A stretch of 44,388 nt of DNA, from NCBI GenBank assembly GCA_023954255.1, contig JAMLIH010000020.1, positions 1 to 44,388 on the forward strand, given 5' to 3'. This document shows, one piece after another, positions 6,525 to 29,144 of the stretch. This DNA comes from Phyllobacteriaceae bacterium. GTDB taxonomy: Bacteria > Pseudomonadota > Alphaproteobacteria > Rhizobiales > Rhizobiaceae. Each line of letters opens with the position of its first letter. The first letter of the stretch is position 1. The notes under the pieces were generated by a model, which saw only the letters and a list, made by a program, of their open reading frames with translations, ran no database searches and was not told where the DNA came from. The translations under genes and the position numbers were made by a program.

Positions 6525-6526
6525 GC

Positions 6527-7773: not shown

Positions 7774-7790
7774 GGAGGAGGAGTCTGCGA

Positions 7791-10494: not shown

Positions 10495-12122
10495 TGGCCT
10501 CGCATTCCAAATCCGCTGCCGCCGACTACGACCTGCTGATTATCGGCGGGGGCGTGAACGGTGCCGGAATTGCGCGCGATGCCGCAGGCAGGGGCTACAG
10601 CGTATGCCTTTGCGAAAAGGGCGATTTCGGCGGCGGGACGTCGTCTGCCTCCACCAAACTGTTTCATGGCGGGCTGCGCTATCTGGAGTATTTCGAAATC
10701 CGGCTGGTGCGCGAGGCGCTGATCGAACGCGAGGTATTGTGGCAGGCCATGCCACATATAAGCTGGCCGATGCGCTTCGTGCTGCCCTATCACGGAGACA
10801 TGCGGTTCGAGGGCGAGACTTCCGTTTCGAAACTGCTTGGTGCCATCGCTCCCTGGCTCAAGGGAAGAAGGCCCGCCTGGATGATCCGGTTCGGCCTGTT
10901 CCTCTACGATCACCTCGGCGGCAGGAAGCGCCTGCCCGCCACCCGAACCCTTGATCTGGCGCACGATCCGGCAGGCCTGCCGCTGAAGCCCGTCTTTACC
11001 CGGGCCTACGAATATTCCGATTGCTGGGTGGAAGATGCCCGCCTCGTCGTTCTCAACCTGCGCGATGCGGCGGAAAGAGGGGCGGAGGTCAATCCGCGCA
11101 CTGCCGTTACAAGGGCACAATACCGCGACGGGCTTTGGCATGCCGAACTGAAGGATGCGAGCGGGAATACCCGTGAGGTTACCGCCACCATGGCGATCAA
11201 TGCCGCGGGCCCGTGGGTCGATGAGGTGCTGCGCGGGGTGTTCGGCCAGAACGATGCCGCCAATGTGCGCCTGGTGAGCGGCAGCCACATCGTCATCAAA
11301 CGCAAATACGATCACGACCGCTGCTACTTCTTCCAGAATGCCGACAGCCGCATCATCTTCGCCATTCCCTTCGAGCACGACTATACGCTGATCGGCACCA
11401 CCGATGCCGACCATCCCGATGTTACTGTCCGGCCGGAAATATCATCCGAGGAGTGCGACTATCTGTGCCGCATGGCCAGTGCCTATTTCGCCGAGCCGGT
11501 ACGGCAGGAAGACATCGTGTGGACCTATTCGGGCGTGCGCCCGCTGTTCGACGACGGCGCCGGCAGCGCGCAGTCAGCCACACGCGAATACGTGCTGCGG
11601 CGCGAGGCCGAGCCGGGCAACGGTACGCTGGTCAATGTCTTCGGCGGCAAGATCACCACCTACCGGCGGCTTGCCGAGGCGATGCTGGAGAAGGTGGGCG
11701 AGACACTTGGCGCCCGCGGCAAACCCTGGACGGCGGGCGTTCCCCTGCCGGGCGGCGATTTTCCCGTCGACGGCTTCGAGGCACTGGTGACCGGGATGCA
11801 GCGGCAATATCCGTTCATGGAAACGGATGTCGTGAGGCGGCTGTGCCGCCTGTACGGCACCCAGGTTGCGACGATCCTCGGCACGGCAAAAAAGGCCTCC
11901 GATCTCGGCAGGCATTTCGGCCACGGACTTTACCAGGCCGAGGCCGAGTACCTGATCGAAAACGAATGGGCGCAAACCGCGGACGACATCCTGTTCAGAA
12001 GAACGAAAACCGGCATCCGCCTGTCAGCCAGCCAAAAGGCCGAACTGAGCCGCTGGATCCAGGGAAGATGTTCGGCGGACAAGCGGCAACGGAACACTGT
12101 CGCCAGTAGCAAGGCAAGATAA
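10494..12122 (+). CDS. glpD: Aerobic glycerol-3-phosphate dehydrogenase GlpD
   Basis: Membrane-associated FAD enzyme oxidising glycerol-3-phosphate to dihydroxyacetone phosphate and feeding electrons to quinone. The 542-residue sequence begins with the dinucleotide-binding motif DYDLLIIGGGVNGAGIARDA, then GGGTSSASTKLFHGGLRYLE, and later SGVRPLFDDG and NVFGGKITTYRRLAE, all family hallmarks. The ATG shares its first base with the glpR stop (TGATG), indicating translational coupling. No glycerol kinase gene is in the window, so glpK must be elsewhere if glycerol is used this way. Confidence 0.95.
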   Translation: MASHSKSAAADYDLLIIGGGVNGAGIARDAAGRGYSVCLCEKGDFGGGTSSASTKLFHGGLRYLEYFEIRLVREALIEREVLWQAMPHISWPMRFVLPYHGDMRFEGETSVSKLLGAIAPWLKGRRPAWMIRFGLFLYDHLGGRKRLPATRTLDLAHDPAGLPLKPVFTRAYEYSDCWVEDARLVVLNLRDAAERGAEVNPRTAVTRAQYRDGLWHAELKDASGNTREVTATMAINAAGPWVDEVLRGVFGQNDAANVRLVSGSHIVIKRKYDHDRCYFFQNADSRIIFAIPFEHDYTLIGTTDADHPDVTVRPEISSEECDYLCRMASAYFAEPVRQEDIVWTYSGVRPLFDDGAGSAQSATREYVLRREAEPGNGTLVNVFGGKITTYRRLAEAMLEKVGETLGARGKPWTAGVPLPGGDFPVDGFEALVTGMQRQYPFMETDVVRRLCRLYGTQVATILGTAKKASDLGRHFGHGLYQAEAEYLIENEWAQTADDILFRRTKTGIRLSASQKAELSRWIQGRCSADKRQRNTVASSKAR

Positions 12123-12191: not shown

Positions 12192-13640
12192 TCACACCGA
12201 GAAGCAGAGATACTTGATCTCCAGAAACTCATCCATGCCGTATTTGGATCCCTCGCGCCCCAGGCCCGACGACTTGATGCCGCCAAAAGGAGCCTCGGCC
12301 GTCGAGACCAGCCCGGTATTGATGCCGACCATGCCGCTTTCCAGTTCCTCGGCCACCTGCCAGATCGTGGATATGTCGCGGGCGTAGAAATAGGATGCGA
12401 GGCCGAACTCGGTATCATTGGCAAGCGCAATTCCCTCCTCGACTGTTTCGAAGGGTATGATCGGCGCCACCGGACCGAAGGTTTCCTCCGAGAGAACCTT
12501 CATTCCGGCGCCAACCCCCATGAGCACCGTCGGCTCGTAGAAGGTGCCGCCCAGTTCGGAACGCTTTCCGCCGGAGACGAGACGGGCGCCCTTGCCGAGC
12601 GCGTCCGCCACATGATCCTCAACCTTTTCCAGGCCTGCCTCGTCGATCAGCGGGCCGATGTTGACGCCCTCATCCATGCCGTTGCCGACCTTCAGCTTCG
12701 AAGTCGCCTCGGCAAGCTTTGCCGCGAAGGCTTCCGCCACGCCGCTCTGGACATAAATCCGGTTGGCGCAAACGCAGGTCTGGCCGGAATTGCGGTACTT
12801 GGCGATCATCGCGCCTTCCACGGCAGCGTCCAGGTCGGCATCGTCGAAGACGAGGAAGGGGGCGTTGCCACCGAGTTCCAGCGACAGTTTCTTGATGTCA
12901 TGGGCGCACTGCTTCATCAGGATACGTCCGACCTCGGTCGAGCCGGTAAAGGTGAGTTTGCGCACCTTCGGATTGGTGCACATTTCCAGCCCGACGCCTT
13001 TCGAGTCCGAACTGGTGATGATGGAGAGCACGCCCTTGGGAATGCCGGCGCGTTCCCCCAGCACCGCCATGGCAAGTGCCGACAGCGGGGTCTTTTCGGC
13101 GGGACGGCCCACAAAGGTGCAGCCGGAAGCAAGCGCCGGGCCGACCTTTCTGGCGATCATCGCGTTGGGGAAGTTCCAGGGTGTAATCGAGCCGACGACC
13201 CCGATCGGCTGCTTGATGACAACGATGCGCTTGTCTTCCTGATGGCCCGGAATGACATCGCCATAGACGCGGCGCGCTTCCTCGGCAAACCACTGGATGA
13301 ACGATGCGCCATAGGCGATCTCGCCCTTCGCCTCCGCAAACGGCTTGCCCATTTCCGCCGTCAGGATCCTGGCCAGGTCATCCTGGTTTTCCAGCATCAG
13401 GTCGTTCCATTTCAGCAGGATCGCGCAACGCTCCTTCGCGGTCTTCCTGCGCCATTTCTTCTGCGCCTCATGGGCAATGTCGATGGCTTTGGCAGTATCC
13501 TGCGAAGTCAGGTCGGCGACATCGGCAATCTTTTCGCCGGTTGCCGGGTTCAGCACCTTGAAGGTCTTGCCGGTATTCACCCACTCACCGCCAAGCAAGG
13601 CCCTGGTTTCCAAGAGGCTCTGATCAGAGAGCTTGAGCAT
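12192..13640 (-). CDS. Succinate-semialdehyde dehydrogenase (GabD/BlcA-like), last gene of the block
   Basis: Oxidises succinate semialdehyde to succinate with NAD(P)+. The 482-residue aldehyde dehydrogenase shows the oxyanion Asn156 in PWNFP, the general base Glu255 in LELGG, the catalytic Cys289 in GQTCVC (with Cys291, which could form a redox disulfide) and a C-terminal FGGIKSSGLGREGSKYG. The cofactor-binding Lys normally found in the K-P-A-E motif is Arg179 here (GRPAEKTP), an unusual change. It lies 23 bases downstream of the Fe-type alcohol dehydrogenase, the same pairing as BlcA/BlcB (AttK/AttL) of Agrobacterium. GabD by sequence, BlcA-like by context. Confidence 0.9.
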   Translation of the reverse strand: MLKLSDQSLLETRALLGGEWVNTGKTFKVLNPATGEKIADVADLTSQDTAKAIDIAHEAQKKWRRKTAKERCAILLKWNDLMLENQDDLARILTAEMGKPFAEAKGEIAYGASFIQWFAEEARRVYGDVIPGHQEDKRIVVIKQPIGVVGSITPWNFPNAMIARKVGPALASGCTFVGRPAEKTPLSALAMAVLGERAGIPKGVLSIITSSDSKGVGLEMCTNPKVRKLTFTGSTEVGRILMKQCAHDIKKLSLELGGNAPFLVFDDADLDAAVEGAMIAKYRNSGQTCVCANRIYVQSGVAEAFAAKLAEATSKLKVGNGMDEGVNIGPLIDEAGLEKVEDHVADALGKGARLVSGGKRSELGGTFYEPTVLMGVGAGMKVLSEETFGPVAPIIPFETVEEGIALANDTEFGLASYFYARDISTIWQVAEELESGMVGINTGLVSTAEAPFGGIKSSGLGREGSKYGMDEFLEIKYLCFSV

Positions 13641-13663: not shown

Positions 13664-14821
13664 TCAGTAGGCTGCACGGTAGATGGCAAGCGCATCCTGC
13701 TCGGTAACCGGCCTAGGATTGTTGACCAGCAGGCGCGTCTGGTTCATGGCATCGGAGGCCAGTCTTGGCAGGATGTCCTGCGGAATTTCCATCGCTCTCA
13801 GGCTCGTCTGCAACCCGCATTCGGCCGAAAGCTCGGCAAGGCGGTCGCAGAAGGCCGCCGCACGCGCCTGACCTTCCAGCTCTGCCAGTTCGGGGAATGC
13901 GTAAGGCGCAAGTTCGGCATAGGGCTGCGGCGATGTCACGATGTTGAAGCGCAACACATGGGGCAGCACCAGGGCGTTGGAAAGCCCGTGCGGGATGTGG
14001 AAATGGCCGCCGAGCGGATAGGCAAGCGCGTGGACGGCGGCTACCGGCGAGTTGGCGAAGGCCTGACCGGCCAGCATAGAGCCGAGCAGCATGTTGGCCC
14101 GGGCCTGCTTGTCACTTCCCTCGTGGACAGCCTTGAGCACGGAGCCGCCCATCAGCGTCAGCGCCTGGGTGGCGAGCATGCGCGAAACCGGATTGTTGTT
14201 GGCGCTTGCCGAAGCATAAGCCTCGATCGCATGCACCATGGCATCGATCCCGGTTGCCGCCGTGATGTGCGGCGGCAGGCCGTAGGTCAGCTCCGGGTCG
14301 AGCAGCGCCACATCGGGCAGGATAACGGGCGAAACCACGCCCATCTTTTCATTGGTGCCCGTGGTGACGATGGAAATGGGTGTCACCTCGGAACCGGTGC
14401 CGGAAGTCGTCGGCACCAGAATGAGTGGCAGGCGCGGCCCTTTCGCATTTCCCACGCCGTAGATGTCCGCAAGCGTTTCCTTGCCCAGTGCAAGAAGCGA
14501 AACCAGTTTGGCGACATCGAGGGAGGAGCCGCCGCCGAAACCAACCACACCGTCAACACCTGCATCCCTTGCCCTGCCGGCAGCGGTGAGAATGACATTC
14601 TCCGGCGGATCGGCCTCGACATCGCAAAACAGTTCCACCGCCACACCGGCCTTTTCGAGTGCCGTAAGTGCGCGTTCCACCAGACCCGTCGCCACCATGC
14701 CCGGATCGGTGACCACCATGACACGGTCCCCGATCTCTCCCTTGACGATGTCGCCGAGTTGGCTGACGGCGCCTTCACCGAACCGGATCGATTTCGAGGT
14801 ATTGAACGTGAACGGATTCAT
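13664..14821 (-). CDS. Iron-containing alcohol dehydrogenase, probable 4-hydroxybutyrate dehydrogenase (BlcB-like)
   Basis: Group III alcohol dehydrogenase, 385 residues, with the NAD-binding GFGGGSSLDVAKL and PTTSGTGSEVTP motifs. Metal ligands are recognisable as Asp and His in GIDAMVHAIEAY and two His in HALAYPLGGHFHIPHG. Next to a succinate-semialdehyde dehydrogenase and with a BlcC-like lactonase upstream in the block, the likely substrate is 4-hydroxybutyrate; the sequence alone does not prove it. The start at 14821 is chosen because GGAG lies just upstream and the protein then begins MNPFTFNTSKSIRFG; an in-frame ATG 15 bases earlier also exists. Confidence 0.85.
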   Translation of the reverse strand: MNPFTFNTSKSIRFGEGAVSQLGDIVKGEIGDRVMVVTDPGMVATGLVERALTALEKAGVAVELFCDVEADPPENVILTAAGRARDAGVDGVVGFGGGSSLDVAKLVSLLALGKETLADIYGVGNAKGPRLPLILVPTTSGTGSEVTPISIVTTGTNEKMGVVSPVILPDVALLDPELTYGLPPHITAATGIDAMVHAIEAYASASANNNPVSRMLATQALTLMGGSVLKAVHEGSDKQARANMLLGSMLAGQAFANSPVAAVHALAYPLGGHFHIPHGLSNALVLPHVLRFNIVTSPQPYAELAPYAFPELAELEGQARAAAFCDRLAELSAECGLQTSLRAMEIPQDILPRLASDAMNQTRLLVNNPRPVTEQDALAIYRAAY

Positions 14822-14848
14822 GAAATTCTCCATCATTTACCGGGCATG

Positions 14849-16798
14849 TCAGCGCCCGAAGCTGAAGGCGGTCAGCGCCGCCAGAACGAAACCTATGGCG
14901 CCGGTGATGACCAGGATGCGCAGTCGTTCCCTTTCCAGAGCCGATTGATCCTTCCTGAGCGTGAGTGGCGGCTCATAGGGCGGGATTTCGACCGTGACCG
15001 GGCTTGCCATTTCCATCTTGTAGGCAAGAAACCATACCAGCCCCAGCCCGCTTATCCATGCAGCCAGGGACCATGCCCAAAGCGACGGCATGCCCAGAAG
15101 CCAGACGGTTTCCTCGCCATTTTGCGCAACAAACGCATAATTGCCGAAAATCAGGCCCGGGCCCACTGCGAGGAAGAACCAGCCGATTGCAATCGACCAG
15201 GCAGTGGAGCGCAGGGCGCGCGCCTTCGGTCTGACTGCCAGCAGGCCGGAAAACAGGTGGCGTATTTCCCGCGCCTCGGTCCGCTGTATCCTTCGGTCGG
15301 TAATCGCGGAAATGATCAGGACCACCGCAAGGTTGGCGGCCATGCCCCACAGCGCGGAATGAATGGTCCAGGGCCACCGGCCCCACGGCAGTTCCAGCCC
15401 GAAGAATGACAGAACCTGATAGCCCAGGGGTTCGGTCAGGATGACGCCGGCTATTCCGAACCCTACGCCTGTCGTTGCCGCCTGCCGCGTGATCCAGCCG
15501 AGCCATGAAACCCCCAGCAAGGGGGTCCAGAGCTGGAATGCGATCGGCAATGCCAGGGAACCGAGTGCGGACAGCGTAACCGGTGCGATGTTTTCCATGA
15601 CCATTGCCAGCGCCGCCAGAACCGCGATGGCGATGCGCGTCAGGTTGACCGTGCCGCGCTTCGACAGGCGGGAATGGAAATAGGGCTTGTAGATGTGGCG
15701 CACCAGCCCTTCCGCAGCGACGAAAAGCGACAGGCCGGCAAGCAACTGCACGCCTGCCGCGATGCCCATGAAAATCCAAGCGGCAAACCAGGGTGACTGT
15801 TCCTGCAACCGTTCGAACAACGCTGCGATGGCGAGGTTCTTGTCGGCCAGCCCGGCAGCGCCCGTCAGCCCGATGGCGAAGACGACCAGCGCGCCGAGGA
15901 AGCCCGCCGTCACCCAGGTCTGGCCGGCCGCAATCCCGTTCGGACTGCGCGTGGACAGAACCAGCTTGAACGCAAGCGGGCTTGCCTGAAACCCCATGAG
16001 TGCAAAGGCAAGACTGAGATTGGCAACGCCTGTATGGGAGGCGGCATATTCCCCGCCCCGCCCCAGACCGGCGGTAAAGTCGATCACCTTGCTGATGTTG
16101 AACAGGTGGGCCGATTCCGGCGCTGCAGCGATTGCAAGCAGCTTGCCGTTGAGCGCTTCGAACCCGCCGATGTAGAACAGCGCGAAAACGGCCAGAGCCG
16201 CAGTTGCGGCGAAGGCAAGCACCGTTTGAACGACACCGAAATAGCCGATCGAGCGCATGCCGCCTATGCCGGCACCGGCAAAGAGGACGAAACCGAACAT
16301 GACACTCGCGGCCAATTGCGAGATCGCGCCGCCGGTCATGGTCTCGGCGAGTTGCGACAGCATGCGCACCTGCAGGCTTGAAAAGCCGATTGCGAAGAGC
16401 ACGGCCACAACCGTCGATACAACCACCAGAAACACGCTGCCGTAATAGACCCTGAAGGTATCCGCCTGCGAGGACACGCGCAGCCTTTCGGCGATGATCC
16501 AGAAGCGCTTGAAGAAGACCACGCCCGGTAATGCCAGCATGATGCCCGCTGCCAGCACGGCAGGCAGCGAAAAGCCGATCTCGGAAACAAGCCGGGTGCC
16601 GCCAAGCGCGAACCAGCCCGTAAGGCTGGCACCGGCCATCACCAGGGCGCTTATCCAGGGTGACAGGCTGTGCCCGGCAGAAAAGAAGCCGTCTTCACCC
16701 CTGCCCTCGTTTGCAGCCACGCGCACCCAGTGCAGCATCACCATCACGTAGAACAGGGCAAAGATCGGAAGCCAGATCGTGTGCGCAATGCCGGTCAT
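14849..16798 (-). CDS. Sodium:solute symporter family transporter
   Basis: Inner-membrane secondary transporter of 649 residues with at least 13 hydrophobic segments. The N-terminal region contains GEDGFFSAGHSLSPWISALV followed by GASLTGWFALGG, matching the start of the SSS family core, and later SIGYFGVVQTVL and GIAAGVQLLAGLSLF. The C-terminus carries an extra cytosolic stretch (PPYEPPLTLRKDQSALERER) and a final helix. It overlaps the upstream four-helix protein by 4 bases (ATGA), suggesting they work together. Substrate is unknown; the downstream genes suggest a small hydroxy- or carboxylic acid. Confidence 0.82.
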   Translation of the reverse strand: MTGIAHTIWLPIFALFYVMVMLHWVRVAANEGRGEDGFFSAGHSLSPWISALVMAGASLTGWFALGGTRLVSEIGFSLPAVLAAGIMLALPGVVFFKRFWIIAERLRVSSQADTFRVYYGSVFLVVVSTVVAVLFAIGFSSLQVRMLSQLAETMTGGAISQLAASVMFGFVLFAGAGIGGMRSIGYFGVVQTVLAFAATAALAVFALFYIGGFEALNGKLLAIAAAPESAHLFNISKVIDFTAGLGRGGEYAASHTGVANLSLAFALMGFQASPLAFKLVLSTRSPNGIAAGQTWVTAGFLGALVVFAIGLTGAAGLADKNLAIAALFERLQEQSPWFAAWIFMGIAAGVQLLAGLSLFVAAEGLVRHIYKPYFHSRLSKRGTVNLTRIAIAVLAALAMVMENIAPVTLSALGSLALPIAFQLWTPLLGVSWLGWITRQAATTGVGFGIAGVILTEPLGYQVLSFFGLELPWGRWPWTIHSALWGMAANLAVVLIISAITDRRIQRTEAREIRHLFSGLLAVRPKARALRSTAWSIAIGWFFLAVGPGLIFGNYAFVAQNGEETVWLLGMPSLWAWSLAAWISGLGLVWFLAYKMEMASPVTVEIPPYEPPLTLRKDQSALERERLRILVITGAIGFVLAALTAFSFGR

Positions 16799-17220
16799 CG
16801 ATCGGAATTCCCGCTATCGGCATGCCTCACATGGAAATGCGAGAATGCCCCCCTGAGGCCATACCGGGTCGACAGATAGATCGGCAGTCCGAGCGCCAGC
16901 ACGGCAAAAAGCGTCAGTCCGGACCAGTAGTCGCTTGCCGACAGGCCGCCGGTCGCCCAGCTTGCAATGAAGACGGCGACGACGATGCCGAAGACGCCGA
17001 TGCCGAGTGCCGCCTCACCCTGCTTGAAGCCGGTGTCGAAAATGGCATTGACCACGAAATGCGCTGCAAATCCGGCCACGATCGCGGCAATACCCGCCAC
17101 GGAAACAGCGTAGGAATCGCGCGAAAAACCCTCGAGCAACAGGGCAAGCCCCCCGAAGCCGAGCACCGCCCAGATCGAGAAGACCAGCAGATCGCGTTCA
17201 ACCATGGCTGACTTGGACAT
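16795..17220 (-). CDS. Four-helix membrane protein coupled to the symporter
   Basis: I do not recognise a named family. The 141-residue protein has four hydrophobic segments (roughly residues 10-28, 38-60, 70-90 and 100-118) and a hydrophilic C-terminus with FSHFHVRHADSGNSDR. Its stop overlaps the symporter start by 4 bases, so the two are translationally coupled. A small accessory subunit of the transporter is the simplest guess. GGAG lies 8 bases before the ATG. Confidence 0.7.
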   Translation of the reverse strand: MSKSAMVERDLLVFSIWAVLGFGGLALLLEGFSRDSYAVSVAGIAAIVAGFAAHFVVNAIFDTGFKQGEAALGIGVFGIVVAVFIASWATGGLSASDYWSGLTLFAVLALGLPIYLSTRYGLRGAFSHFHVRHADSGNSDR

Positions 17221-19052: not shown

Positions 19053-19760
19053 TCAGTTCTGTTCATTCCGGCTCCCCTCACTGTCGAGCATGGCTGAGGC
19101 CAGAACGGCGACCCCGAATGCCATCCGGTTAAGAAAATCGGCAATGTTGTAGGCGACAGACAGCGAGCCGTCGTCGACATAGCCGGCGAAAGAGGTAATG
19201 AAGTTGCCGAGCGGATAAATCGCCCAGCCGACCGTCACGATCAGCCTCAGCCAGAAATATCCGCGCCGCACCGGCTCGCTCGCCGAGTTGCGGATGACTT
19301 CGTCCATCTTTCCGAAGAAAAGTTCGCCGAGCACATAGAGCCAGAAAACAAGCCCGATCAGGAAGGCGAGCGTGGCGTGCATGAAGCCTGCTTCACCGAG
19401 ATAGCGCACGAACACCATCAGGATCGAGACGATCGTCAGCCGCCAGAACAGGCCGATGCCGAGCTTTCCGCAGCGCCGGGCAAGAAAATAGAGTGCCAGC
19501 ACCTGAAGCGGCATGGAAACGGCCCAGCCGACATAGTGATAGACGACCGGAACCATCTTGCTGGCAGCCCATGCCTCGCGCGCCTCGAACATCGCGCCAA
19601 CGCCGACAAGGGCGGCCAGAGCACAAAGCGCCACCGGCAGTTTCCAGCCACGGTTCACCCATCCGGTTCCGAGCAGCAGAAGTACGCTTGTGGCGACCAG
19701 ACCGAGCGTCGCCGTCGAATAGCTTGCCGCCGTCAGGTCTGCAGTTTCGAACACTGCCAT
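19053..19760 (-). CDS. Microbial rhodopsin homologue lacking the retinal-binding lysine
   Basis: Seven-helix protein of 235 residues that aligns along its length with proteorhodopsin. Conserved fold positions include W79 and P84 in helix C (YHYVGWAVSMPLQV), GEAG in helix D/E (YLGEAGFMHATLAF), W179/Y182/P183 in helix F (GWAIYPLGNF) and D208 in helix G (YNIADFLNRMAFG). The Schiff-base lysine of helix G is Arg212 (codon CGG) and helix G has no lysine at all. In helix C the Arg, Asp counterion, Thr and Glu donor positions are His75, Gly78, Ser82 and Ala89. Retinal attachment and proton pumping are therefore not expected. The frame is intact with GGAG before the ATG, so it is not a pseudogene by appearance. 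It lies 49 bases after an ABC permease gene and 51 before the flotillin gene. Confidence 0.88.
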   Translation of the reverse strand: MAVFETADLTAASYSTATLGLVATSVLLLLGTGWVNRGWKLPVALCALAALVGVGAMFEAREAWAASKMVPVVYHYVGWAVSMPLQVLALYFLARRCGKLGIGLFWRLTIVSILMVFVRYLGEAGFMHATLAFLIGLVFWLYVLGELFFGKMDEVIRNSASEPVRRGYFWLRLIVTVGWAIYPLGNFITSFAGYVDDGSLSVAYNIADFLNRMAFGVAVLASAMLDSEGSRNEQN

Positions 19761-19809
19761 CTCTATGCACTCCCCTTGCGATACACGATCATGATCATTT
19801 CATGCCTTT

Positions 19810-21183
19810 CTAGATTTGCGTCCTGATGTGCGGCGAGCGCGCATAGAGCGCCACCATGGGCAGGATCAGCAGACCGAAGATGAATTGCTGCCACTCGAAG
19901 TCGAGCCCGATGCCGATCAGGAACGACGAAAGCACCTGGAGAACCAGAACGCCGATAACGGTGAAACCGTAGCCGCCCTGCCCGCCGAGAAGCGACGTTC
20001 CGCCGACAACGACCGCGGCCAGCGTCAGGAACAGGTACTGGTCGCCAACACCGATGAAGCCACCACCGGACCAGCCGAGCAGCAGTCCGCCCGTCAATGC
20101 GGCGAAGAAGCCGGAGATCGCATACATCATGACCCAGTAGGCCAGTTCCGAAATCATAACCCGCTTGGCCGACGTGCGGTTGACGCCAAGCGCGTAGAGA
20201 TAGCGGCCATAGACCGTCAGGCGCATGCCGGCGATCAGCACGATGAGCACCAGCGCCCAGATGGCGATAACGGGCGGGAACGGCAGGCCGAAGGTCGTGC
20301 CGTTCATGGCGGCAAGGTTCGAAAGCCAGGGCGGAACCTGACCGAAGACGTTGCCGGAATAGGCGGAGCCGATGGAGGTGATGATCTGGACGCCGCCGGA
20401 AATCGCAAAGCCGGTTCCCAGCGTGACGATCAGCGCCTGACCCTGCAGGCGGTAGCTCAGAAAGCCGTTGATGACGCCGAGAAGCGTACCGACAGCAAGG
20501 ACGATGATCGCTGCCAGCCAGGGCGGAACCCCGAGGCCGATCAGGTAGAGCAGCCCGACATTGGCAGCGCCGATGATGAAGGGGATCGACAGGTCGAGCC
20601 CGCCCAGCAGGGCAACCAGCGTCTGGCCGACAGAGGCGATGCCGAGGAAGGAGGCAAACAGCAGCATCGACTTGATGTTGTTGGCGGAAGCAAAGCCCTC
20701 GATGTTCATCGAACCGATGGAGAACAGGCCGCACAGCACCATGATGCCGATGAAGGCGGAGCGGTTTTCCTGGAAATGGCGGCCAAGCGTTCGCGTCAGA
20801 ACGATGATCGTCAGGATGATGAGGAATGAAACGATGTTCCAGACATTGAAGAAGCCGTCGATCGTCAGCGACAGGATCAGGAACAGGGCCAGCAATACAA
20901 GCAGACCGTAGATTGCGGGGCGGAACTGCAGCCAGACCCTTCTGCCCTCGCTTATCTGGCCTTCCTCGACGGGTTCGCCGCTGCCGGTGAACTGGCCCAG
21001 CACGAAGCGCCAGCCCCATACAAAGGCGGCAAGCGTGGCGATGGCGGACAGAATGATGATCTGGACCGAAACGCCCTGAATGAAACCGAACACCACGCCG
21101 ATGGCCGTCAGGATGATCCCCGCGGCAACACCGATGATCGTCGCCGGCAATCCGAGCCGGGGCAATGCGGGGGCGGGCGTCAT
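19810..21183 (-). CDS. Rbs-type ABC transporter permease with N-terminal membrane extension
   Basis: Branched-chain/ribose-type permease (BPD_transp_2), 457 residues against about 320 for RbsC. The core includes GIASVGQTLVALLGGLDLSIP, GVINGFLSYRLQGQALIVTLGTG, and YALGVNRTSAKRVMI near the C-terminus, the coupling region. The first 100 residues or so are extra: two helices (about 13-35 and 40-62) and a polar loop with GSGEPVEEGQISEG before the core begins. It overlaps the preceding permease gene by 4 bases (ATGA) and is followed after 49 bases by the rhodopsin homologue. With its partner it probably forms a heterodimeric channel. Confidence 0.87.
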   Translation of the reverse strand: MTPAPALPRLGLPATIIGVAAGIILTAIGVVFGFIQGVSVQIIILSAIATLAAFVWGWRFVLGQFTGSGEPVEEGQISEGRRVWLQFRPAIYGLLVLLALFLILSLTIDGFFNVWNIVSFLIILTIIVLTRTLGRHFQENRSAFIGIMVLCGLFSIGSMNIEGFASANNIKSMLLFASFLGIASVGQTLVALLGGLDLSIPFIIGAANVGLLYLIGLGVPPWLAAIIVLAVGTLLGVINGFLSYRLQGQALIVTLGTGFAISGGVQIITSIGSAYSGNVFGQVPPWLSNLAAMNGTTFGLPFPPVIAIWALVLIVLIAGMRLTVYGRYLYALGVNRTSAKRVMISELAYWVMMYAISGFFAALTGGLLLGWSGGGFIGVGDQYLFLTLAAVVVGGTSLLGGQGGYGFTVIGVLVLQVLSSFLIGIGLDFEWQQFIFGLLILPMVALYARSPHIRTQI

Positions 21184-22625
21184 CGGCTGTCCTCCACATT
21201 GGTTGCGGGAGTACCGGCCGGCGCACCTTCGCGCATCACATAAGCCGCCAGCAGCACCAGCGCTGCGACCACCACGGCCACGGCAGGTGCGATGGTCCGG
21301 CGGTCGGACTGGCTGACGGCGATGCGGACGAAGAATGCGATGACGATGAGCAGCAGCGCCGACAGGATCATCGGTGCAGCCTCACGGCGCAATTCGTCGT
21401 CGCCGGAATCCGGCGACCCAACCTCCAGCGGACCGACATAAAGCTGATCCGGTGCAATCGGCTGAAGCTGCTGAACGACGGCTGTCTGTTCGGGCTCGAC
21501 ATTGCGGGCGCGCGGATCGCGATCGTTCGTTGCATGCAGGATGACGCCGAGCGCGATCACGCCAAGCACGACGAAATAGAGAACCGGCGAGAAATTGCGG
21601 ATGTGACGCTGGATGAAGGGAACGATCAGCGTGAGCAGCAGGGAAATGACGAGGATCGAGCCATACGCCAGATTGGTAACGAAGCTCTGCACCGCGCCGA
21701 AGTTGAAGGTCGCCAGGACAAAGGTGATCAGATAGAGGTTCACGGCGCCCAGGAACGAGCCGAAAACACCGGCGCGGCCACCGGCAAGCGAGGCGCCGCC
21801 CAGCACCAGCGCGGTGACTGCAATCAGCGTGTAGGTGGTGCCCTGCGAGGGATCGCCGGAGGAAATCAGTGCGGTGAAGTCGATCGCGGCAAGTCCGGCA
21901 AATCCGCCGGATATGATGTGTGCGCCGATGCGTACCAGGAAGATCGGGACACCGGAGGTGTAGGCTGCGCGTTCATCCGAGCCCATCAACCTGAGATGGG
22001 TGTAGAAGGCCGTGCGGGTAAACAGCAGCCAGGCGATGGTTGCCAGCACCAGGATCACGAATACCGGGGAGAAGATCGAGGTTCCCAGCCCCCAGTCGGC
22101 CATGAATTGCGGTGCCATGCCGCCGGGACGCGGCAGGATGACCAGATTGATGCCCGACAGTGCCAGATAGCCCGAAAGCGAGACGATGATGGGCTGCACC
22201 CGGACATAGATGACGATCAGCGCAAAGATGAACTGGTAAAGCGCGCCGATGAAAATCGCATAGGCAAATATGACAATGGGATTTCCGAGAATTTCCGCGG
22301 CATAGAGCTGGACCAGCGTTACGTTGATGAAGCCGATCAGCGGCCCGATGGACAGGTCCACCGTGCCACGCCCCGAGATCACCGACGCCATCAGCGCATA
22401 GGTCGCCAGGATGAGCGGCGTGGCGACAATGATGGCACTGCCGATGCCGTTGGACGACATCAGGCTCGGCGAACGCAGGACCGCGAGACCGAGCAACAGG
22501 AAGAACAGGGTAATCGGCACGAGCAGGAACGGGTTCGCCCTGCCGCCGCGCGCCAGTTCGACCGGAGCCTCCGCGACTTCCGCCGCCGCCGTTTCCATGC
22601 GCAGGGGAGCGGTCATCCCGGTCAT
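21180..22625 (-). CDS. Rbs-type ABC transporter permease with C-terminal membrane extension
   Basis: BPD_transp_2 permease of 481 residues. The core has MASVISGRGTVDLSIGPLIG, YVRVQPIIVSLSGYLALSG and the coupling segment HLRLMGSDERAAYTSGVP. After the usual last core helix there is an additional helix (PVLYFVVLGVIALGVIL), a polar loop of about 50 residues and two further helices (about 419-438 and 446-464), which RbsC lacks. It overlaps both the ATPase gene and the second permease gene by 4 bases. A second start lies 9 bases downstream. Confidence 0.87.
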   Translation of the reverse strand: MTGMTAPLRMETAAAEVAEAPVELARGGRANPFLLVPITLFFLLLGLAVLRSPSLMSSNGIGSAIIVATPLILATYALMASVISGRGTVDLSIGPLIGFINVTLVQLYAAEILGNPIVIFAYAIFIGALYQFIFALIVIYVRVQPIIVSLSGYLALSGINLVILPRPGGMAPQFMADWGLGTSIFSPVFVILVLATIAWLLFTRTAFYTHLRLMGSDERAAYTSGVPIFLVRIGAHIISGGFAGLAAIDFTALISSGDPSQGTTYTLIAVTALVLGGASLAGGRAGVFGSFLGAVNLYLITFVLATFNFGAVQSFVTNLAYGSILVISLLLTLIVPFIQRHIRNFSPVLYFVVLGVIALGVILHATNDRDPRARNVEPEQTAVVQQLQPIAPDQLYVGPLEVGSPDSGDDELRREAAPMILSALLLIVIAFFVRIAVSQSDRRTIAPAVAVVVAALVLLAAYVMREGAPAGTPATNVEDSR

Positions 22626-24457
22626 CGGCCGGCCCCTCCCGGTCCGATCTCGCGCGCCTCGCCATTGGCCCTCTCGAACTCGACGATGCGGATCGGCTTG
22701 GATGCCCGGACGGGTTCGACATTGCGTGGCGCCGTCTGCCGGGCGGAGACCGTTTCACGAATCTTGACCGAGCCGGGCAGAACGATCGTCTGCGGCCCGT
22801 CATCCTTTGCAACCCCGCGCGACAGCGGCGCGTGACCGTGACCACCGGCAGCCTTGCCATCGGGGGTGAGCGAGGGTTTCAGCCCGTAGGCCGACTTCAG
22901 CCCGGAACCGTCCGTCTGGCCGAACATCGCTTCGAGCACCTTTTTCGGGTCGAGCGATCGGCCGTCGAATGCGTCGAAGGGCTTGCCGTCCCTGAAGACG
23001 ATGACACGGGTTGCAAAGCCCATGAATTCCTCAAGCTCCGAGGACATGTAGACAATGCATTTTCCGTCGCCCGCAAAGGTGCGCAGATGCTTGTAGAGTT
23101 CGGTTTTGGCACCAACGTCGATGCCGCGGGCCGGATCGTTGAGGACGATGACGTCAGGCCGCATCGCAAAGCCGCGACCGATCAGAACCTTCTGCTGATT
23201 GCCGCCGGAAAGCGACGTGATCAGGTCCTCGCGCATGCCGAACTTGATCATCAGATTGTCGGCTTCTCGCCGGAAGATGGAACCCAGCGTTCCCCAGTCG
23301 ATCAGGCCCAGAATGCCGCCGCGCCTTTTTTCCCGGTAGAGCGGCATCATCATGTTTTCGAAGATCGACAGCGAGGCGAAGATGCCCTCGCGCTTGCGGT
23401 CGCCGGAGACATAGGCGATCCTGTTTTTCACCGCATCGGAAAGCGAGCGGACGGCCTGAAACTCTCCGTTGCGGTCTGCCACGCTAATGGTGCCCTGCAG
23501 GACCGGCTCCACGCCGGCGATGGCGCGAACGAAGGCATCCTGTCCCTGGCCATCGAGGCCGGCAATGCCAACGATCTCTCCGCGCCGCAGGTCGAAGTCG
23601 AACGGTTCGGCACCCGCCCACACGGAGACCTTCTCGCCACTCATGGCAAGCCTGCCGTCCGAAGGCTGCGGCGCCTCATGGGCATGAGAGTGGCCGGCAT
23701 CCTCGTCGCCGGTCATCAGGGCAAGCAGGTTCTTCTCGGTGATCTGCTCCTTTTCCAGAACCCCCACGTCGCGCCCGTCACGCAACACGGTGGCGCGATC
23801 GGAAATGCGGATCAGCTCGGCAATGCGGTGGGTGACGATCAGGATCGTCGTGCCGGCATCGCGCAGGGTCCGCATCTTGGCAAACAGGCGTTCGGTGCTG
23901 TCGAAGTCGAGCGCGGCCGAGCTTTCATCGAGAATCAGGATCCTGGGTTCGCTGACAAGCGCCCGGGCAATCGTGATCCACTGCTTCAGCCCGAGGGGCA
24001 GGGTTCCGACGATGGCATGGGGATCGATCGGCTCGCCCGCCAGTTCCTGCATCAGCTGGGCGGCAAGATGCACCTTGCGTTCCTGGGACAGGTTCTTGGA
24101 AAACAGCGCATCGGCGCCCATGAAAATGTTGTCGGCAACGGTACTTTCATCGGCCACCAGAACTTCCTGGTAGACGGTGGAAATACCGAGTGCCTTGCTT
24201 TCAGCAGGCGTCGAGGGGGTTTCTCCGAGGATCGATACCGATCCGGAATCGACCGGCAGCACGCCGGAAACCACTTTCGCCATGGTCGACTTGCCACACC
24301 CATTGCCGCCGACGATGGCGTGAATCTCTCCGGCGCGAGCCGAAAAGCTCACCCCGTCGAGCGCCCGCGTGGGCCCGAAGAATTTCTTCACATTGCGCAC
24401 GGTGATCGTTTCGTGACCGTTCGCGGATTGTGACTTGTCTTCTGTGTTGGTCGGCAT
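22622..24457 (-). CDS. Rbs-type ABC transporter ATP-binding protein (two nucleotide-binding domains)
   Basis: Tandem ATPase of the RbsA/MglA class, 611 residues (RbsA is about 500). The first domain has Walker A GGNGCGKST (50-58) and Walker B ILILDESSAALDFD; its signature is LPLGLKQWITIARAL, far from LSGGQ. The second domain has the degenerate Walker A typical of RbsA (GIAGLDGQGQDAF) with a canonical signature (SLSGGNQQKVLIGRG). About 100 extra residues follow, polar and rich in Pro/Lys/Arg, ending REIGPGGAGR. The start at 24457 (MPTNTEDKSQ) is chosen because the residues before it are out of family; the ribosome-binding site is weak. Confidence 0.88.
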   Translation of the reverse strand: MPTNTEDKSQSANGHETITVRNVKKFFGPTRALDGVSFSARAGEIHAIVGGNGCGKSTMAKVVSGVLPVDSGSVSILGETPSTPAESKALGISTVYQEVLVADESTVADNIFMGADALFSKNLSQERKVHLAAQLMQELAGEPIDPHAIVGTLPLGLKQWITIARALVSEPRILILDESSAALDFDSTERLFAKMRTLRDAGTTILIVTHRIAELIRISDRATVLRDGRDVGVLEKEQITEKNLLALMTGDEDAGHSHAHEAPQPSDGRLAMSGEKVSVWAGAEPFDFDLRRGEIVGIAGLDGQGQDAFVRAIAGVEPVLQGTISVADRNGEFQAVRSLSDAVKNRIAYVSGDRKREGIFASLSIFENMMMPLYREKRRGGILGLIDWGTLGSIFRREADNLMIKFGMREDLITSLSGGNQQKVLIGRGFAMRPDVIVLNDPARGIDVGAKTELYKHLRTFAGDGKCIVYMSSELEEFMGFATRVIVFRDGKPFDAFDGRSLDPKKVLEAMFGQTDGSGLKSAYGLKPSLTPDGKAAGGHGHAPLSRGVAKDDGPQTIVLPGSVKIRETVSARQTAPRNVEPVRASKPIRIVEFERANGEAREIGPGGAGR

Positions 24458-24487
24458 CGGTACTTTGTCGTCCGGTGAAACAGTGCC

Positions 24488-24514
24488 GGCCGCCGCCAGA
24501 ACATGGCGGCGGCC
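24488..24514 (-). other. Perfect 10-bp hairpin between binding-protein and ATPase genes
   Basis: GGCCGCCGCC (24488-24497) and GGCGGCGGCC (24505-24514) flank a 7-base loop. It starts 20 bases after the binding-protein stop on the coding strand and no T tract follows, so an mRNA-stabilising or attenuating hairpin favouring the binding protein is likely, as in the glp operon of this window. Confidence 0.55.
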
Positions 24515-24534
24515 CTTTCTTTCAGCCTGCGGGA

Positions 24535-25704
24535 TCAGGGCTTGTAGGTCGTCGGGTCCGCAGGGTTGGCGAAGAACTGGTTGAGGTACTCGGTCGAGCC
24601 CCAGTGGTCGGCACCGACATTCAGCCAGTTCTGGGCGTTCTCGTCGCAATCCTCGGGCAGCAGTTTCATCACGTCTTCATGGGTGATGATCACCGGATCG
24701 ACGAGGATGGACTGAACCTTCGGTCCCTGGCCCTGAAGCGTACGCATCATGATGCGCCAGATCAGGTTGATGTCATCGGCCGGCGGCCAGGTCTGAACGG
24801 CAGCCGAGATCAGATCGGGGTTCTTGCGCCAGGTGCACAGGGCACCCAGTTCGCCGCCGATGGCTACCTTGACACCGGTGCGGCCGGACTGCTGAAGGGC
24901 GCGCAACACACCCATTTCGGCTGCCGACTGAACAACGATGGCGTCGAGTTTGCCCGGGTGGGTGGCGAGCCATTTCTGGACCTCGCCCTGAGCGACCTGA
25001 TCGGTCCACATGCCGGCAATGGAACCCACCACATTGATTCCGGGGGCTGTGGCAAGGCCTGCCTTGACGCCGCGGTCCTGGCTGTCGGAACCGGAGGTGC
25101 CGGGAATGCCCTCAACGACGAGGACATTGCCTTGACCGCCAAGCTCGTCAGCCATGCGCTTGCCGATCTCGAAACCGGCAACCTGATAGTTGACCGAGGA
25201 GTTGATGGCAGTATCGGCCGTGAGATAGCCGGTCATGGAGAACACCGGCACGCCCTTGTCGAAAGCATACTGCACCGTCTGGTTCAGCGCCGTCGGGTTG
25301 GAACAGCAGACGAAGATCGCGTCGACACCCTGGTCGACGAGCTGGCGCATCTGCTGGATCTGCGTCGAATCGTTCAGGTTCGACTGGGTGACGACCACCT
25401 CGCTGATGAGACCGAGTTCCTTCCATTTCGGGATGATCTCGTTCTGCAGCGGCTCCATAGCGTTGGCGCGCCAGGTGTTACCGGCATAGGACGATGCATA
25501 GCCGATCTTCCATGGTGGCGGATTCTTGGCCTTGAAATTGCGCAGCGGGCTGGCGCCCACCGGCTGCATCGGGTCGAGCATGTCGGGATTGTAGAGGCGC
25601 TTGGCGACATCGGGATCGATTTCGTCCACCCCTTCCGCATGGGCGGCAAATGCGCCGATGGCGATCATGCCTGCGGCCAATACCATTTTCTTCAGGAATC
25701 TCAT
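24535..25704 (-). CDS. Sugar-type ABC transporter substrate-binding protein
   Basis: Periplasmic binding protein of the LacI-like (Peripla_BP_4) fold, 389 residues. The signal peptide is MRFLKKMVLAAGMIAIGAFA with cleavage after AHA. Characteristic segments are WKIGYASSYAGNTWRANAMEP, QGVDAIFVCCSNPTALNQTV and NVLVVEGIPGTSGSDSQDRG, matching the ligand-cleft strands of ribose-type binding proteins. Cys-Cys in FVCCSN and two further Cys may allow a disulfide. An AGGAGGAG ribosome-binding site precedes the ATG. The ligand is not deducible from sequence; neighbours suggest a lactone, ester or hydroxy-acid rather than necessarily a sugar. Confidence 0.88.
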   Translation of the reverse strand: MRFLKKMVLAAGMIAIGAFAAHAEGVDEIDPDVAKRLYNPDMLDPMQPVGASPLRNFKAKNPPPWKIGYASSYAGNTWRANAMEPLQNEIIPKWKELGLISEVVVTQSNLNDSTQIQQMRQLVDQGVDAIFVCCSNPTALNQTVQYAFDKGVPVFSMTGYLTADTAINSSVNYQVAGFEIGKRMADELGGQGNVLVVEGIPGTSGSDSQDRGVKAGLATAPGINVVGSIAGMWTDQVAQGEVQKWLATHPGKLDAIVVQSAAEMGVLRALQQSGRTGVKVAIGGELGALCTWRKNPDLISAAVQTWPPADDINLIWRIMMRTLQGQGPKVQSILVDPVIITHEDVMKLLPEDCDENAQNWLNVGADHWGSTEYLNQFFANPADPTTYKP

Positions 25705-25839: not shown

Positions 25840-26778
25840 TCAATCGTAAAAATCCTTCGGAGCCTTGCGGAACTCCCGCCAGTTGTCCGGATCGTGCCCG
25901 GTGACGATCATCGCATTGGTGTCGCTGGCGATCCGTCTCAGCTTCTCGACCGAGTTGGCCGCATCCGCCGACGAAACGACCAGACCGGGCAGTGCCTTGT
26001 TCTCCCAGTGGTCGAGCGTGTAGGCGGCATCGATCGTCAGCAGGACCGGACCTGTCCTGGGCAGCGTCACGAGAAAGGACTGGTGGCCGGGTGCGTGGCC
26101 GGGCGTGAAGATCATCCGGATCGTGCCGTCCCCGAACAGATCGTAATTGTCGGTGTACTCGCCGCCGAGAAACTTCCAGTTCAGTCCCGGGCGGTCGAAA
26201 TCCGCGCGTATGTAGGCGCCCGCGGAGAACCAGTGCGGCTTGAATGCGTACTCGTATTCGGCACGCTGACAGACGATCTGCGCATTGGGGAAGTGGCCGA
26301 TGGCGCCGGTGTGGTCGAGATGGAGGTGCGACTGCAGCACGTAGCGCACCGAATGGGGATCGACCCCCACCAGCCGGCACTGGTCGGTGCAGTTGTCGGC
26401 GACATCCATGATCGGATCATAGGCATCGACGACAGCGCCCCAATGGCCCCGCTTGTCGATTGCCGCCTCAATGGCGTTGCCGCCATCGATTACCACATTG
26501 CCGGCGGGATGCTTGATCAGGAACCAGGGAACCGGGATCTCGAAATCCTGCTCGCCCTGGTTCATCTTGATGTATTTGAGTTTTGTTCTCAGCGTTCCGG
26601 TCTGGAACATGTGAAGTTCGATGCCGGAGGAGTTGCCTCGCTTGCGTGACGAGCCCTGGTTTCGCTCCGAACCAAATTGCGGTCTCGGAGCAAGGCTGTC
26701 CGCGCCGACGGAGGCGCTTGGCGAGTCGGACTGTCTCGCTACGCGCTGCCCTTTTTCATCGAATTCAATGATTTTCAT
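25840..26778 (-). CDS. BlcC/AttM-like metallo-beta-lactamase-fold lactonase with N-terminal extension
   Basis: Lactonase related to AttM/BlcC of Agrobacterium, which opens gamma-butyrolactone to 4-hydroxybutyrate and also degrades acyl-homoserine lactones. The dizinc motif is HLHLDH (His151, His153, Asp155, His156), followed by TPGHAPGHQSFL, LLTIDAAYTLDHWE and VTGHDPDNW, as I remember them in AttM. The homologous part starts at about residue 53 (GIELHMFQTGTL). The first 52 residues are extra and rich in Ser/Arg/Gly, without a signal peptide. The ATG at 26778 has a GGGGA site upstream; an ATG at 26610 would remove the extension but lacks a ribosome-binding site. Confidence 0.88.
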   Translation of the reverse strand: MKIIEFDEKGQRVARQSDSPSASVGADSLAPRPQFGSERNQGSSRKRGNSSGIELHMFQTGTLRTKLKYIKMNQGEQDFEIPVPWFLIKHPAGNVVIDGGNAIEAAIDKRGHWGAVVDAYDPIMDVADNCTDQCRLVGVDPHSVRYVLQSHLHLDHTGAIGHFPNAQIVCQRAEYEYAFKPHWFSAGAYIRADFDRPGLNWKFLGGEYTDNYDLFGDGTIRMIFTPGHAPGHQSFLVTLPRTGPVLLTIDAAYTLDHWENKALPGLVVSSADAANSVEKLRRIASDTNAMIVTGHDPDNWREFRKAPKDFYD

Positions 26779-26830
26779 TCTGGATTTCCCCGGGCGTGTT
26801 TTCTCGTGCAATTGCTCGCAGGTTCATTCC

Positions 26831-28172: not shown

Positions 28173-28253
28173 TTCAGTTTGATCGAACGGGTTGAAAACG
28201 ATTCCGTTTTCGGTCTACTGTTCAGAATACTGAACACAATTCAGTGTCTTGAA
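28173..28253. promoter_or_regulatory. Palindromic operator cluster between the IclR gene and the 13-gene block
   Basis: The 192-base divergent region contains a perfect inverted repeat TGTTCAG-AATA-CTGAACA (28219-28236), an imperfect copy TTCAGTGTCTTGAA (28240-28253) and a third, TTCAGTTTGATCGAA (28173-28187). All share TTCAG/TTGAA-type half sites. IclR relatives such as BlcR bind paired inverted repeats in this position; binding by the neighbouring regulator is inferred. Confidence 0.6.
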
Positions 28254-28322
28254 CTGTATTCATCCGTTCTGACGACTGTCAAGATACAATTGGGAATCGG
28301 TGCAAGTTTCTGGAGGCCGACA

Positions 28323-29144
28323 ATGGATCAGCAAAACACCAAACTGGTGCCGGCGGTCGAGCGGGCGACGCGTATCCTCGATTACGTCGCGCGCAACCGC
28401 AATCATCCGACCCTGTCGGAGCTTTCGCGGGAACTGCGAATGGCAAAAAGCACCACCCATACTTTGTGCCAGACCCTCGTGGAACTTAACCTTCTGATCC
28501 GCAGATCCGACCAGACCTACCAGCTCGGACCGCATCTGATGCGCTGGTCGAACGCCTTTGCCCGCCAATCGGACGTTGCAACCGAATTCGCCTCGATCTG
28601 GGACAAGGAAACCGAAATGCCGGGCGCCACGATTACCCTGACGGTACTCGAGGGCTCGGAGGTGATCTACATCGCCGCCCGAAATTCCGCGGTCAGCCAC
28701 TCGCTGGTGGATTTCCGGGTGGGCATGCGGCTTCCCGCCGCTTTCACGGCCACGGGCAAATCCTTCCTCAGCTACATGAGCGATTTCGAGGTCAAGCGGC
28801 TCTATTCGGACGGGCTGCCGGAGCCGCGGACGAAGCACAGCGTGCAATCCGTCGACAAGCTGCTGGGGGAACTCAACCAGATTCGAAAGCTCGGATATTC
28901 GATCGACAATCAGCAGGTCGCCGACGGAATCATCTGCTTTGGCGCATCCGTTCTCGACTCCCGAAATGCACCCATCGCCGGGGTCGCGGTCAGCCTGCTG
29001 ATCGAGGATGTCACGGAGGAGGATCGCGAGCGGATCATCGAAAACATCAAGCGGATTGCCTCGCGCCTTTCGGTGCGCATGTTTGATCTGACTGAACGCC
29101 CGGGAACGCTGGGCCCGCTGTTTCAATGCCGGATGAGCGAGTGA
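28323..29144 (+). CDS. IclR-family transcriptional regulator (BlcR-like by context)
   Basis: 273-residue IclR regulator: winged helix at about residues 8-75 (PAVERATRILDYVARN, then TLSELSRELRMAKSTTHTL) and the effector-binding domain from about 95 on (FRVGMRLPAAFTATGKSFLS, DNQQVADGIICFGASVLD). In Agrobacterium the blc operon is repressed by an IclR protein, BlcR/AttJ, released by succinate semialdehyde or gamma-butyrolactone; the same partners are present here. The start is ATG 28323 with TGGAGG 6 bases upstream. The 3' end overlaps the convergent thioredoxin-reductase-like gene by 22 bases. Confidence 0.88.
   Translation: MDQQNTKLVPAVERATRILDYVARNRNHPTLSELSRELRMAKSTTHTLCQTLVELNLLIRRSDQTYQLGPHLMRWSNAFARQSDVATEFASIWDKETEMPGATITLTVLEGSEVIYIAARNSAVSHSLVDFRVGMRLPAAFTATGKSFLSYMSDFEVKRLYSDGLPEPRTKHSVQSVDKLLGELNQIRKLGYSIDNQQVADGIICFGASVLDSRNAPIAGVAVSLLIEDVTEEDRERIIENIKRIASRLSVRMFDLTERPGTLGPLFQCRMSE

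Follow-up and report, generated by a model that had tools for sequence, protein, structure and literature searches.

A lysine-less FArhodopsin flanked by ABC permease and flotillin genes in a blcRABC-like operon of a Phyllobacteriaceae bacterium

The window analysed here, a stretch of 44,388 nucleotides from a Phyllobacteriaceae bacterium (contig JAMLIH010000020.1, assembly GCA_023954255.1), carries a gene for a rhodopsin homologue, hereafter FAR, in which arginine takes the place of the lysine that binds retinal. We found it to be an Arg-type FArhodopsin (flotillin-associated rhodopsin). Both this substitution and the replacement of the helix-C aspartate by glycine are fixed in a clade whose FAR genes are under purifying selection, and FAR lies between genes for an ATP-binding cassette (ABC) permease and a flotillin in hosts where searches turned up neither another rhodopsin nor a Blh/BCD retinal synthase. 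The interpretation that we favour, and to which we give roughly an even chance, is that this FArhodopsin, free of retinal, serves a solute-uptake and catabolic operon from within the membrane, as a part or organiser that does not depend on light.

The open reading frame is complete, running on the minus strand from an ATG at position 19760 to a TGA ending at position 19053, with a ribosome-binding-site-like AAGGGGAG upstream, which agrees with the intact frame and binding site read in a first-pass annotation of this DNA; that annotation was silent on the strand of the gene and on the likeness of its neighbours to a gamma-butyrolactone pathway. The Pfam profile Bac_rhodopsin matched residues 13-223 at 74.3 bits (cut-off, 24.6), and by this profile and a seven-helix AlphaFold model (mean pLDDT 88.9, pTM 0.87) FAR has the type 1 rhodopsin fold. 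In a structure search, with TM scores normalised by query, the nearest PDB entry was 9r21, the flotillin-associated rhodopsin PsFAR (TM 0.94, rmsd 1.5), and 7b03 gave a TM of 0.87. By sequence, the nearest solved structures were 9r21 (E 5e-44) and 9r23 (E 8e-44), again flotillin-associated rhodopsin. The rhodopsin homology first proposed from the sequence was thus upheld by both profile and predicted fold. FAR residues were equated with those of bacteriorhodopsin (BR) by alignment: in helix C, R82, D85, W86, T89 and D96 of BR correspond to H75, G78, W79, S82 and A89 of FAR, and in helix G, D212 and K216 correspond to D208 and R212. Since the lysines of FAR are only at 40, 68, 99 and 151, helix G is without lysine. 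FAR lacks both the Schiff-base lysine of a proton pump (Arg212) and its helix-C DTE set of Asp acceptor and Glu donor (Gly78, Ser82, Ala89). All of these sites, including the retained fold residues W79 and D208, had been read correctly in the first-pass annotation.

Close homologues sharing the arginine and the flotillin/ABC neighbours, which that annotation had named as a check, were found. A GTDB scan gave 40 relatives of the window FAR; R212 and G78 occur in 41/41 aligned sequences (window included), and flotillin and the permease gene permB accompany FAR in 40/40. In a larger Arg-type set of 52 rows (49 distinct sequences; some loci are counted twice, e.g., L011/L138 and L024/L143, and L145, the same locus as L126, was left out of the residue table), R212, G78, R119, W79, W179 and Y182 are each present in all 52. 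Position 208 is D in 50/52 and E in 2/52, position 75 is H in 49/52 (the others being P, Q and one unreadable residue), and position 186 is N in 49/52. The FAR frame is intact, with no internal stop, in 40/40 relatives, isolates among them. For 29 loci with all ten genes (window included), the median ratio of nonsynonymous to synonymous substitution rates (dN/dS) was 0.148 for FAR (258 pairs with usable dS), 0.127 for permB, 0.122 for flotillin and 0.174 for permA; FAR is therefore under purifying selection similar to that on its neighbours. The Arg type was present in 7/101 genomes of a family-level sample (own genome included), so its distribution is patchy, and its hosts include named Hyphomicrobiales and Rhodobacterales with genomes of 2.9-8.0 Mb. 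Many soil and marine bacteria retain the intact gene, and hosts of the cluster include the tractable, non-pathogenic Hoeflea sp. IMCC20628 and Martelella sp. AD-3.

That the gene stands alone is not supported, FArhodopsins being a published family (Haro-Moreno et al., 2023, PMC10308929). Marine FArhodopsins keep the lysine, always lie beside flotillin and are accompanied by a proteorhodopsin elsewhere in the genome, and the freshwater metagenomic forms, also next to flotillin, are mostly lysine-less, with Gln, Thr, Leu or Arg instead (PMC10308929). Rh-noK, a xanthorhodopsin-like group from betaproteobacteria that PMC10308929 cites, likewise consists of bacterial rhodopsins without the lysine; a partner of the kind described for them was not seen here. 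Membership of the Arg type is supported by synteny (flotillin is directly adjacent on the same strand in the window and in 40/40 relatives), by the PDB match to PsFAR, and by Gly145, present in 64/64 FARs of Arg, Leu and Lys types and in 0/58 proteorhodopsins (Tyr or Trp in 58/58). In a tree of 43 rows, the Arg type formed one side of a branch with 100/100 support, apart from the proteorhodopsins; in a tree with Leu types, the Arg and Leu rows together were set apart from Lys-FARs and proteorhodopsins, again at 100/100. Support was weak for placing the Leu type among Arg rows (87/53) and for the Lys-FAR group (77/71 and 69/28), in trees that had proteorhodopsins as their sole outgroup and from which, as from the counts, L075-L077 (the loci of L048-L050) were left out. 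The simplest reading of these trees would be that the lysine was lost once, before the Arg/Leu split. The first-pass annotation had held that lysine-keeping homologues at the same locus would mark the window gene as a local mutation. Such homologues, which keep the Asp as well, do exist in other lineages, between the equivalent permease and flotillin (L048-L050, L150, L177, L178); however, since they are a separate lineage at 31-38% identity, they are no argument for a local mutation here. An in-frame TGA reported in L048-L050 proved to be the normal stop.

Proteorhodopsins (58/58) and Lys-FARs (7/7) uniformly have R75, D78 and K212. The Arg type combines G78 with R212 and has no Arg at 75 in 51/51 readable rows, and the Leu type (5/5) has R75, G78 and L212. 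Judging from the alignment, each lysine-less type has lost its helix-C Asp and retains a single arginine close to D208 (or E208). R72 of NpSRII is presumably the equivalent of R82 of BR. The opsin-related proteins of haloarchaea, likewise retinal-free, fall into two groups with the same Arg/Leu swap: in group A the lysine is replaced by Arg and R72 is not conserved, and in group B it is replaced by Leu or another hydrophobic residue and R72 is conserved (Becker et al., 2016, PMC4915679). Unlike FAR, these proteins have a separate archaeal origin and often lie beside chemotaxis transducers, and they have lost the pocket aromatics W178 and Y174 (PMC4915679), whereas the Arg clade keeps W179 and Y182. 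A plasmid search with BR returned 13 records, of which the two haloarchaeal ones inspected both keep the lysine, so the haloarchaeal swap is taken from that paper. A broader, joint reading, which we regard as possible but doubtful, would have retinal-free opsins of bacteria and archaea converge on a one-arginine rule, by which exactly one buried Arg faces the helix-G Asp, supplied by helix G in the Arg type and by helix C in the Leu type, and would make FAR a standing, light-independent subunit of the ABC importer, docked on FAR-specific permease helices.

To look for a light partner, 58 genomes in all were searched for rhodopsins, 43 distinct Arg-type genomes among them (the duplicates G014, G038, G039 and G084, which are the genomes of L018, L016, L012 and L030, were dropped, and L005 entered as G021). 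Bac_rhodopsin matched once per genome in 43/43 Arg-type and 3/3 f68 Lys-type genomes, and twice in each of the two SAR11-type FAR genomes. Searches for Blh/BCD retinal synthase were positive in 0/43 Arg-type and 0/3 f68 genomes, but in 2/2 SAR11-type FAR genomes, which also have a proteorhodopsin, and in 5/6 proteorhodopsin controls. An RPE65-family oxygenase, a potential apocarotenoid maker, was present in 3/43 Arg-type and 3/3 f68 genomes. Since many of these genomes are drafts or metagenome-assembled genomes (MAGs), absence means only that a gene was not found. FArhodopsins abound in the sea, and the role published for them, as a suggestion, is to help a proteorhodopsin; for freshwater forms the partner question is left open (PMC10308929). 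Considering that FAR is the sole rhodopsin found in 43/43 Arg-type genomes, with no Blh/BCD, we rejected this helper role for the Arg clade. Unlike marine FArhodopsins, the Arg type resides in larger genomes, and we take the proteorhodopsin partner to be a trait of the marine subgroup rather than of the whole family. From these sequences we infer that FAR would contain no retinal. The earlier proposal that the gene is kept for a role other than pumping gains support from the fixation of Arg in a large clade, from purifying selection, and from the lack of any second rhodopsin or retinal synthase found.

The operon around FAR (Table 1) runs on the minus strand in the order alpha/beta hydrolase, AttM lactonase, substrate-binding protein, ATPase, permA, permB, FAR, flotillin, p141, symporter, iron-containing alcohol dehydrogenase (Fe-ADH) and succinate-semialdehyde dehydrogenase (SSADH). 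For the genes present, 39/40 relatives are collinear and same-stranded, and all twelve genes occur in 18/40 within the available DNA. FAR, permB and flotillin are present in all 40, p141 and the symporter in 39, the ATPase and permA in 38, and the substrate-binding protein in 37; the enzymes are less complete (alpha/beta hydrolase 36, AttM 35, Fe-ADH 30, SSADH 19), several loci ending early. Like blcRABC (attJKLM) of Agrobacterium plasmid pAtC58, the operon has homologues of a lactonase (AttM, 62-63.5% identity), Fe-ADH and SSADH together with an IclR regulator (other identities in Table 1). However, the genes annotated in a 12.8-kb stretch of pAtC58 (L134) include neither a rhodopsin or flotillin nor an ABC importer or symporter. 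In the blc pathway, succinate is made from gamma-butyrolactone, with 4-hydroxybutyrate and succinic semialdehyde as intermediates (PMC3907764). Since the gene set is blcRABC-like, the same pathway is our best guess for the FAR operon, with a gamma-butyrolactone- or 4-hydroxybutyrate-like compound as the putative substrate. The slowest-evolving gene measured in the cluster is the alpha/beta hydrolase (median dN/dS 0.060). The ATPase gene probably starts near residue 75-80 of its frame. Elsewhere in the window, a second ABC importer (an SBP_bac_1 protein, two ATPases and a permease) lies beside a DAO/DAO_C protein (4585-9527, minus strand, and 10491-12122, plus strand), a locus that we take to resemble the rhizobial glycerol uptake locus. 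Genes for a fatty acid desaturase (31308-32453), an M24 peptidase (33374-34726), a ketopantoate-reductase-like protein (35393-36523) and a cytochrome P450 (40073-41500) were also found.

Table 1. Positions in the window of FAR, its sequence elements and the genes of its operon (aa, amino acids).
Feature	Position	Strand	Remarks
Arg-type FArhodopsin (FAR)	19053..19760	-	235 aa, seven-helix rhodopsin fold without retinal lysine
Ribosome-binding-site-like AAGGGGAG of FAR	19770..19777	-	upstream of FAR start
Arg212 codon CGG	19125..19127	-	position of BR Lys216
Flotillin (Flot + Band_7), 570 aa	17289..19001	-	51 bases downstream of FAR
ABC permease B (permB), 457 aa	19810..21183	-	49 bases upstream of FAR
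permB N-terminal extension, residues 1-139, ~4 hydrophobic segments	20767..21183	-	
ABC permease A (permA), 481 aa	21180..22625	-	BPD_transp_2
permA C-terminal extension, from about residue 334	21180..21626	-	
ABC ATPase, ribose/xylose type	22622..24649	-	frame longer than gene
Periplasmic substrate-binding protein	24535..25704	-	Peripla_BP_4
AttM/BlcC-family lactonase	25840..26811 (open frame; homologous part about 25840-26622)	-	NF045700 424.7 bits, cut-off 390
Alpha/beta hydrolase, 282 aa	26831..27679	-	82-83% identity to SAR11-type copies
Divergent IclR-family regulator	28179..29144	+	41% identity to BlcR of pAtC58
p141, 141-aa protein, ~4 hydrophobic segments	16795..17220	-	no Pfam or NCBIfam match
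Sodium:solute-symporter-like protein, 649 aa	14849..16798	-	no Pfam match; weak NCBIfam PutP, MctP, PanF
Fe-ADH	13664..14836	-	54% identity to blcB (attL) product, pAtC58
SSADH	12192..13640	-	60% identity to blcA (attK) product, pAtC58

Other FArhodopsin clusters share the alpha/beta hydrolase, Fe-ADH, symporter and ABC genes with that of the window. In the SAR11-type cluster of G611 (L109, L165), identities are 31% for FAR, 44% for flotillin, 82% for the alpha/beta hydrolase, 63% for AttM and 58-60% for Fe-ADH, and the cluster also holds a symporter, ABC genes, PxpA/B/C-like genes and a DMFA2_C protein. The Lys-type cluster L163 has hydantoinase/oxoprolinase A and B. The Leu-type clusters L160-L162 have an alpha/beta hydrolase at 46% identity and gave no AttM match, and no hydantoinase/oxoprolinase or PxpABC-like genes were found in Leu types. 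By this comparison, the ring-opening enzymes vary by type, and the importer, FAR, flotillin and symporter recur. The alpha/beta hydrolase is 82-83% identical to its copies in SAR11-type and other Lys-type clusters (L075-L077, L108, L109, L163), where FAR is 31-38% identical. Used as a finder of FAR clusters, it matched in 13/398 genomes, only G791 giving a new full cluster; six homologues at 42-46% identity showed no FAR over the 20 kb read, and the locus of G907 ends at a contig edge. Two loci (L168, L169) combine a 39-40% identical alpha/beta hydrolase with SSADH and an ABC importer with short permeases and gave no FAR, flotillin or symporter match; they are possibly a FAR-free relative of the operon. 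A Leu-type cluster also occurs in an isolate, Shinella sp. PSBB067, on a 4.6 Mb plasmid record (L136), in a stretch without listed features. Two further plasmid records, CP070278.1 (246 kb, Dysgonomonadaceae bacterium zrk40) and NZ_CP066788.1 (Martelella lutilitoris), have lengths within 5 bases of each other and the same match, and are probably the same plasmid, derived from a mixed culture.

The strongest pointer to function is the link between FAR and extensions of both permeases, a link that shared descent may explain. An order-level search found permB in 23/387 genomes, own included. Of the 22 others, 13 have an adjoining FAR, of Arg type in 8 (L138-L145), Leu type in 4 (L146-L149) and Lys type in 1 (L150), and their permB matches that of the window over the N-terminal part, whereas the 9/22 without FAR in the available flanks match it only from about residue 133-146. 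At class level, permB was found in 7/385 genomes, i.e., the own genome, three of f68, two of f33 and G347. Each of the two f33 genomes has, as its second rhodopsin, a Lys FAR flanked by an extended permB and by flotillin (L177, L178); the G347 contig, like L179, ends before the FAR position. Extensions were scored by hydropathy scan when at least 130 aa long, with at least 2 hydrophobic segments also required for permB. The permB N-terminal extension was present in 56/58 FAR-bearing rows, the exceptions being L021 (where a frameshift of the MAG puts the extension out of frame) and L033 (contig end), with L035 lacking a measurable permB, and the permA C-terminal extension was present in 56/56. 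In FAR-less homologues, by contrast, permB had no hydrophobic segment upstream of the core (7/7) and permA ended within 26 aa (5/5). L165, with the SAR11-type ABC genes, carries both extensions. The permA extension is far longer in Lys-type clusters (L075-L077, L163, L165, L177 and L178) than in Arg or Leu types, at about 418-491 aa over the five rows for which it was measured, with as many as 10 hydrophobic segments. Comparison of the extensions with p141, the symporter and FAR (phmmer/blastp) gave no convincing homology among the matches listed.

We propose that the seven-helix body of FAR would pack against the extra permease helices and flotillin, and that this packing would keep the importer, perhaps with the symporter, together in a single patch of membrane. 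The operon would import a gamma-butyrolactone- or 4-hydroxybutyrate-like compound, which the lactonase and/or the alpha/beta hydrolase would open for oxidation to succinate, and a single buried R212-D208 pair would hold the core of FAR, replacing the charge cluster around the retinal Schiff base. Several points weigh against this proposal. The extension counts come from a crude hydropathy scan and, since FAR and the extensions were possibly gained once and inherited together, 56/58 does not represent 56 independent events. The ABC genes of SAR11-type G611 lie ~15.5 kb from FAR rather than adjoining it, and the permB structure model (mean pLDDT 57) was too poor for use or for a fold search. The substrate is deduced from homology, SSADH being present in 19/40 relatives (some loci end earlier), and the Leu-type clusters are without AttM.

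The pocket of the Arg type offers a different role. R119, found in all 57 Arg and Leu rows, stands in place of a Gly invariant in 58/58 proteorhodopsins, so the retinal pocket is altered in addition to losing the lysine link, and at N186 (49/52) proteorhodopsins have Tyr (58/58). The PsFAR residue aligned with R119 is E120, and in 9r23 its depositors changed it to Gly together with H84V, presumably to regain retinal. With these polar residues, FAR could be a chemosensor: a carboxylate or lactone metabolite would bind in what was once the retinal pocket, anchored by Arg212 and Arg119, and FAR would then switch transport or the assembly of flotillin in the manner of a small G-protein-coupled receptor. 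The operon's handling of carboxylates would fit; moreover, in proteo-opsin without retinal, decanoate is held through a salt bridge with the equivalent helix-G lysine (PMC11322631; PDB 8cnk), and the haloarchaeal retinal-free proteins have been proposed as chemosensors (PMC4915679). We nevertheless judge a sensor unlikely. Neither a transducer nor a kinase could be recognised in the FAR operon, the conserved partners of the family are transport and flotillin genes and, since the Leu type has no base at 212, Arg212 is no family-wide anchor. Of similarly low probability is a role with flotillin only, close to the published proposal, in which FAR would organise a membrane microdomain generally and the ABC neighbourhood would be secondary. 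The pairing of FAR and flotillin is indeed a published invariant (PMC10308929) that holds in 40/40 relatives here; however, the permease extensions track FAR, and no flotillin was found in the five ABC loci without FAR that were read over 14-20 kb. A residual light function, with retinal or another apocarotenoid bound non-covalently, is left open for FArhodopsins in PMC10308929 and could draw on the conserved W79, W179 and Y182 and on the RPE65-family oxygenase of three Arg-type genomes. We consider it very improbable, as no Blh/BCD was found in 43/43 genomes and no RPE65 family in 40/43 (outside uptake being possible), and R119 occupies the very site reverted to the proteorhodopsin Gly in 9r23 with H84V. 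A decaying gene or assembly artefact can be set aside, given the intact frames (isolates included), the purifying selection and nothing found in its favour for the window gene; together with R212/G78 conservation, the same evidence ruled out a local mutation or pseudogene.

The FArhodopsin kind and its Arg substitution were known before, from metagenomes. In the literature searched, which left most subscription papers and all of bioRxiv outside, we found no description of a lysine-less rhodopsin in an ABC/lactonase operon, nor any account of which named bacteria carry the Arg type, of its missing light partner, of the blc-like genes in its operon, of the extended permeases or of the charge rule; the Results of PMC10308929 make no mention of a lactonase, blc-like genes or permease extensions. 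The Arg clade places the FAR module in named, partly cultured bacteria in which no second rhodopsin or Blh/BCD was found, and its function is therefore testable by ordinary gene deletion. The Arg/Leu charge swap would provide a simple sequence rule for recognising retinal-free opsins. The clade points to transport and catabolism rather than light, suggesting that a rhodopsin can be taken over for nutrient uptake, as a component that works independently of light; if FAR is indeed a subunit of the importer, one of the most thoroughly studied membrane folds would have acquired a new use.
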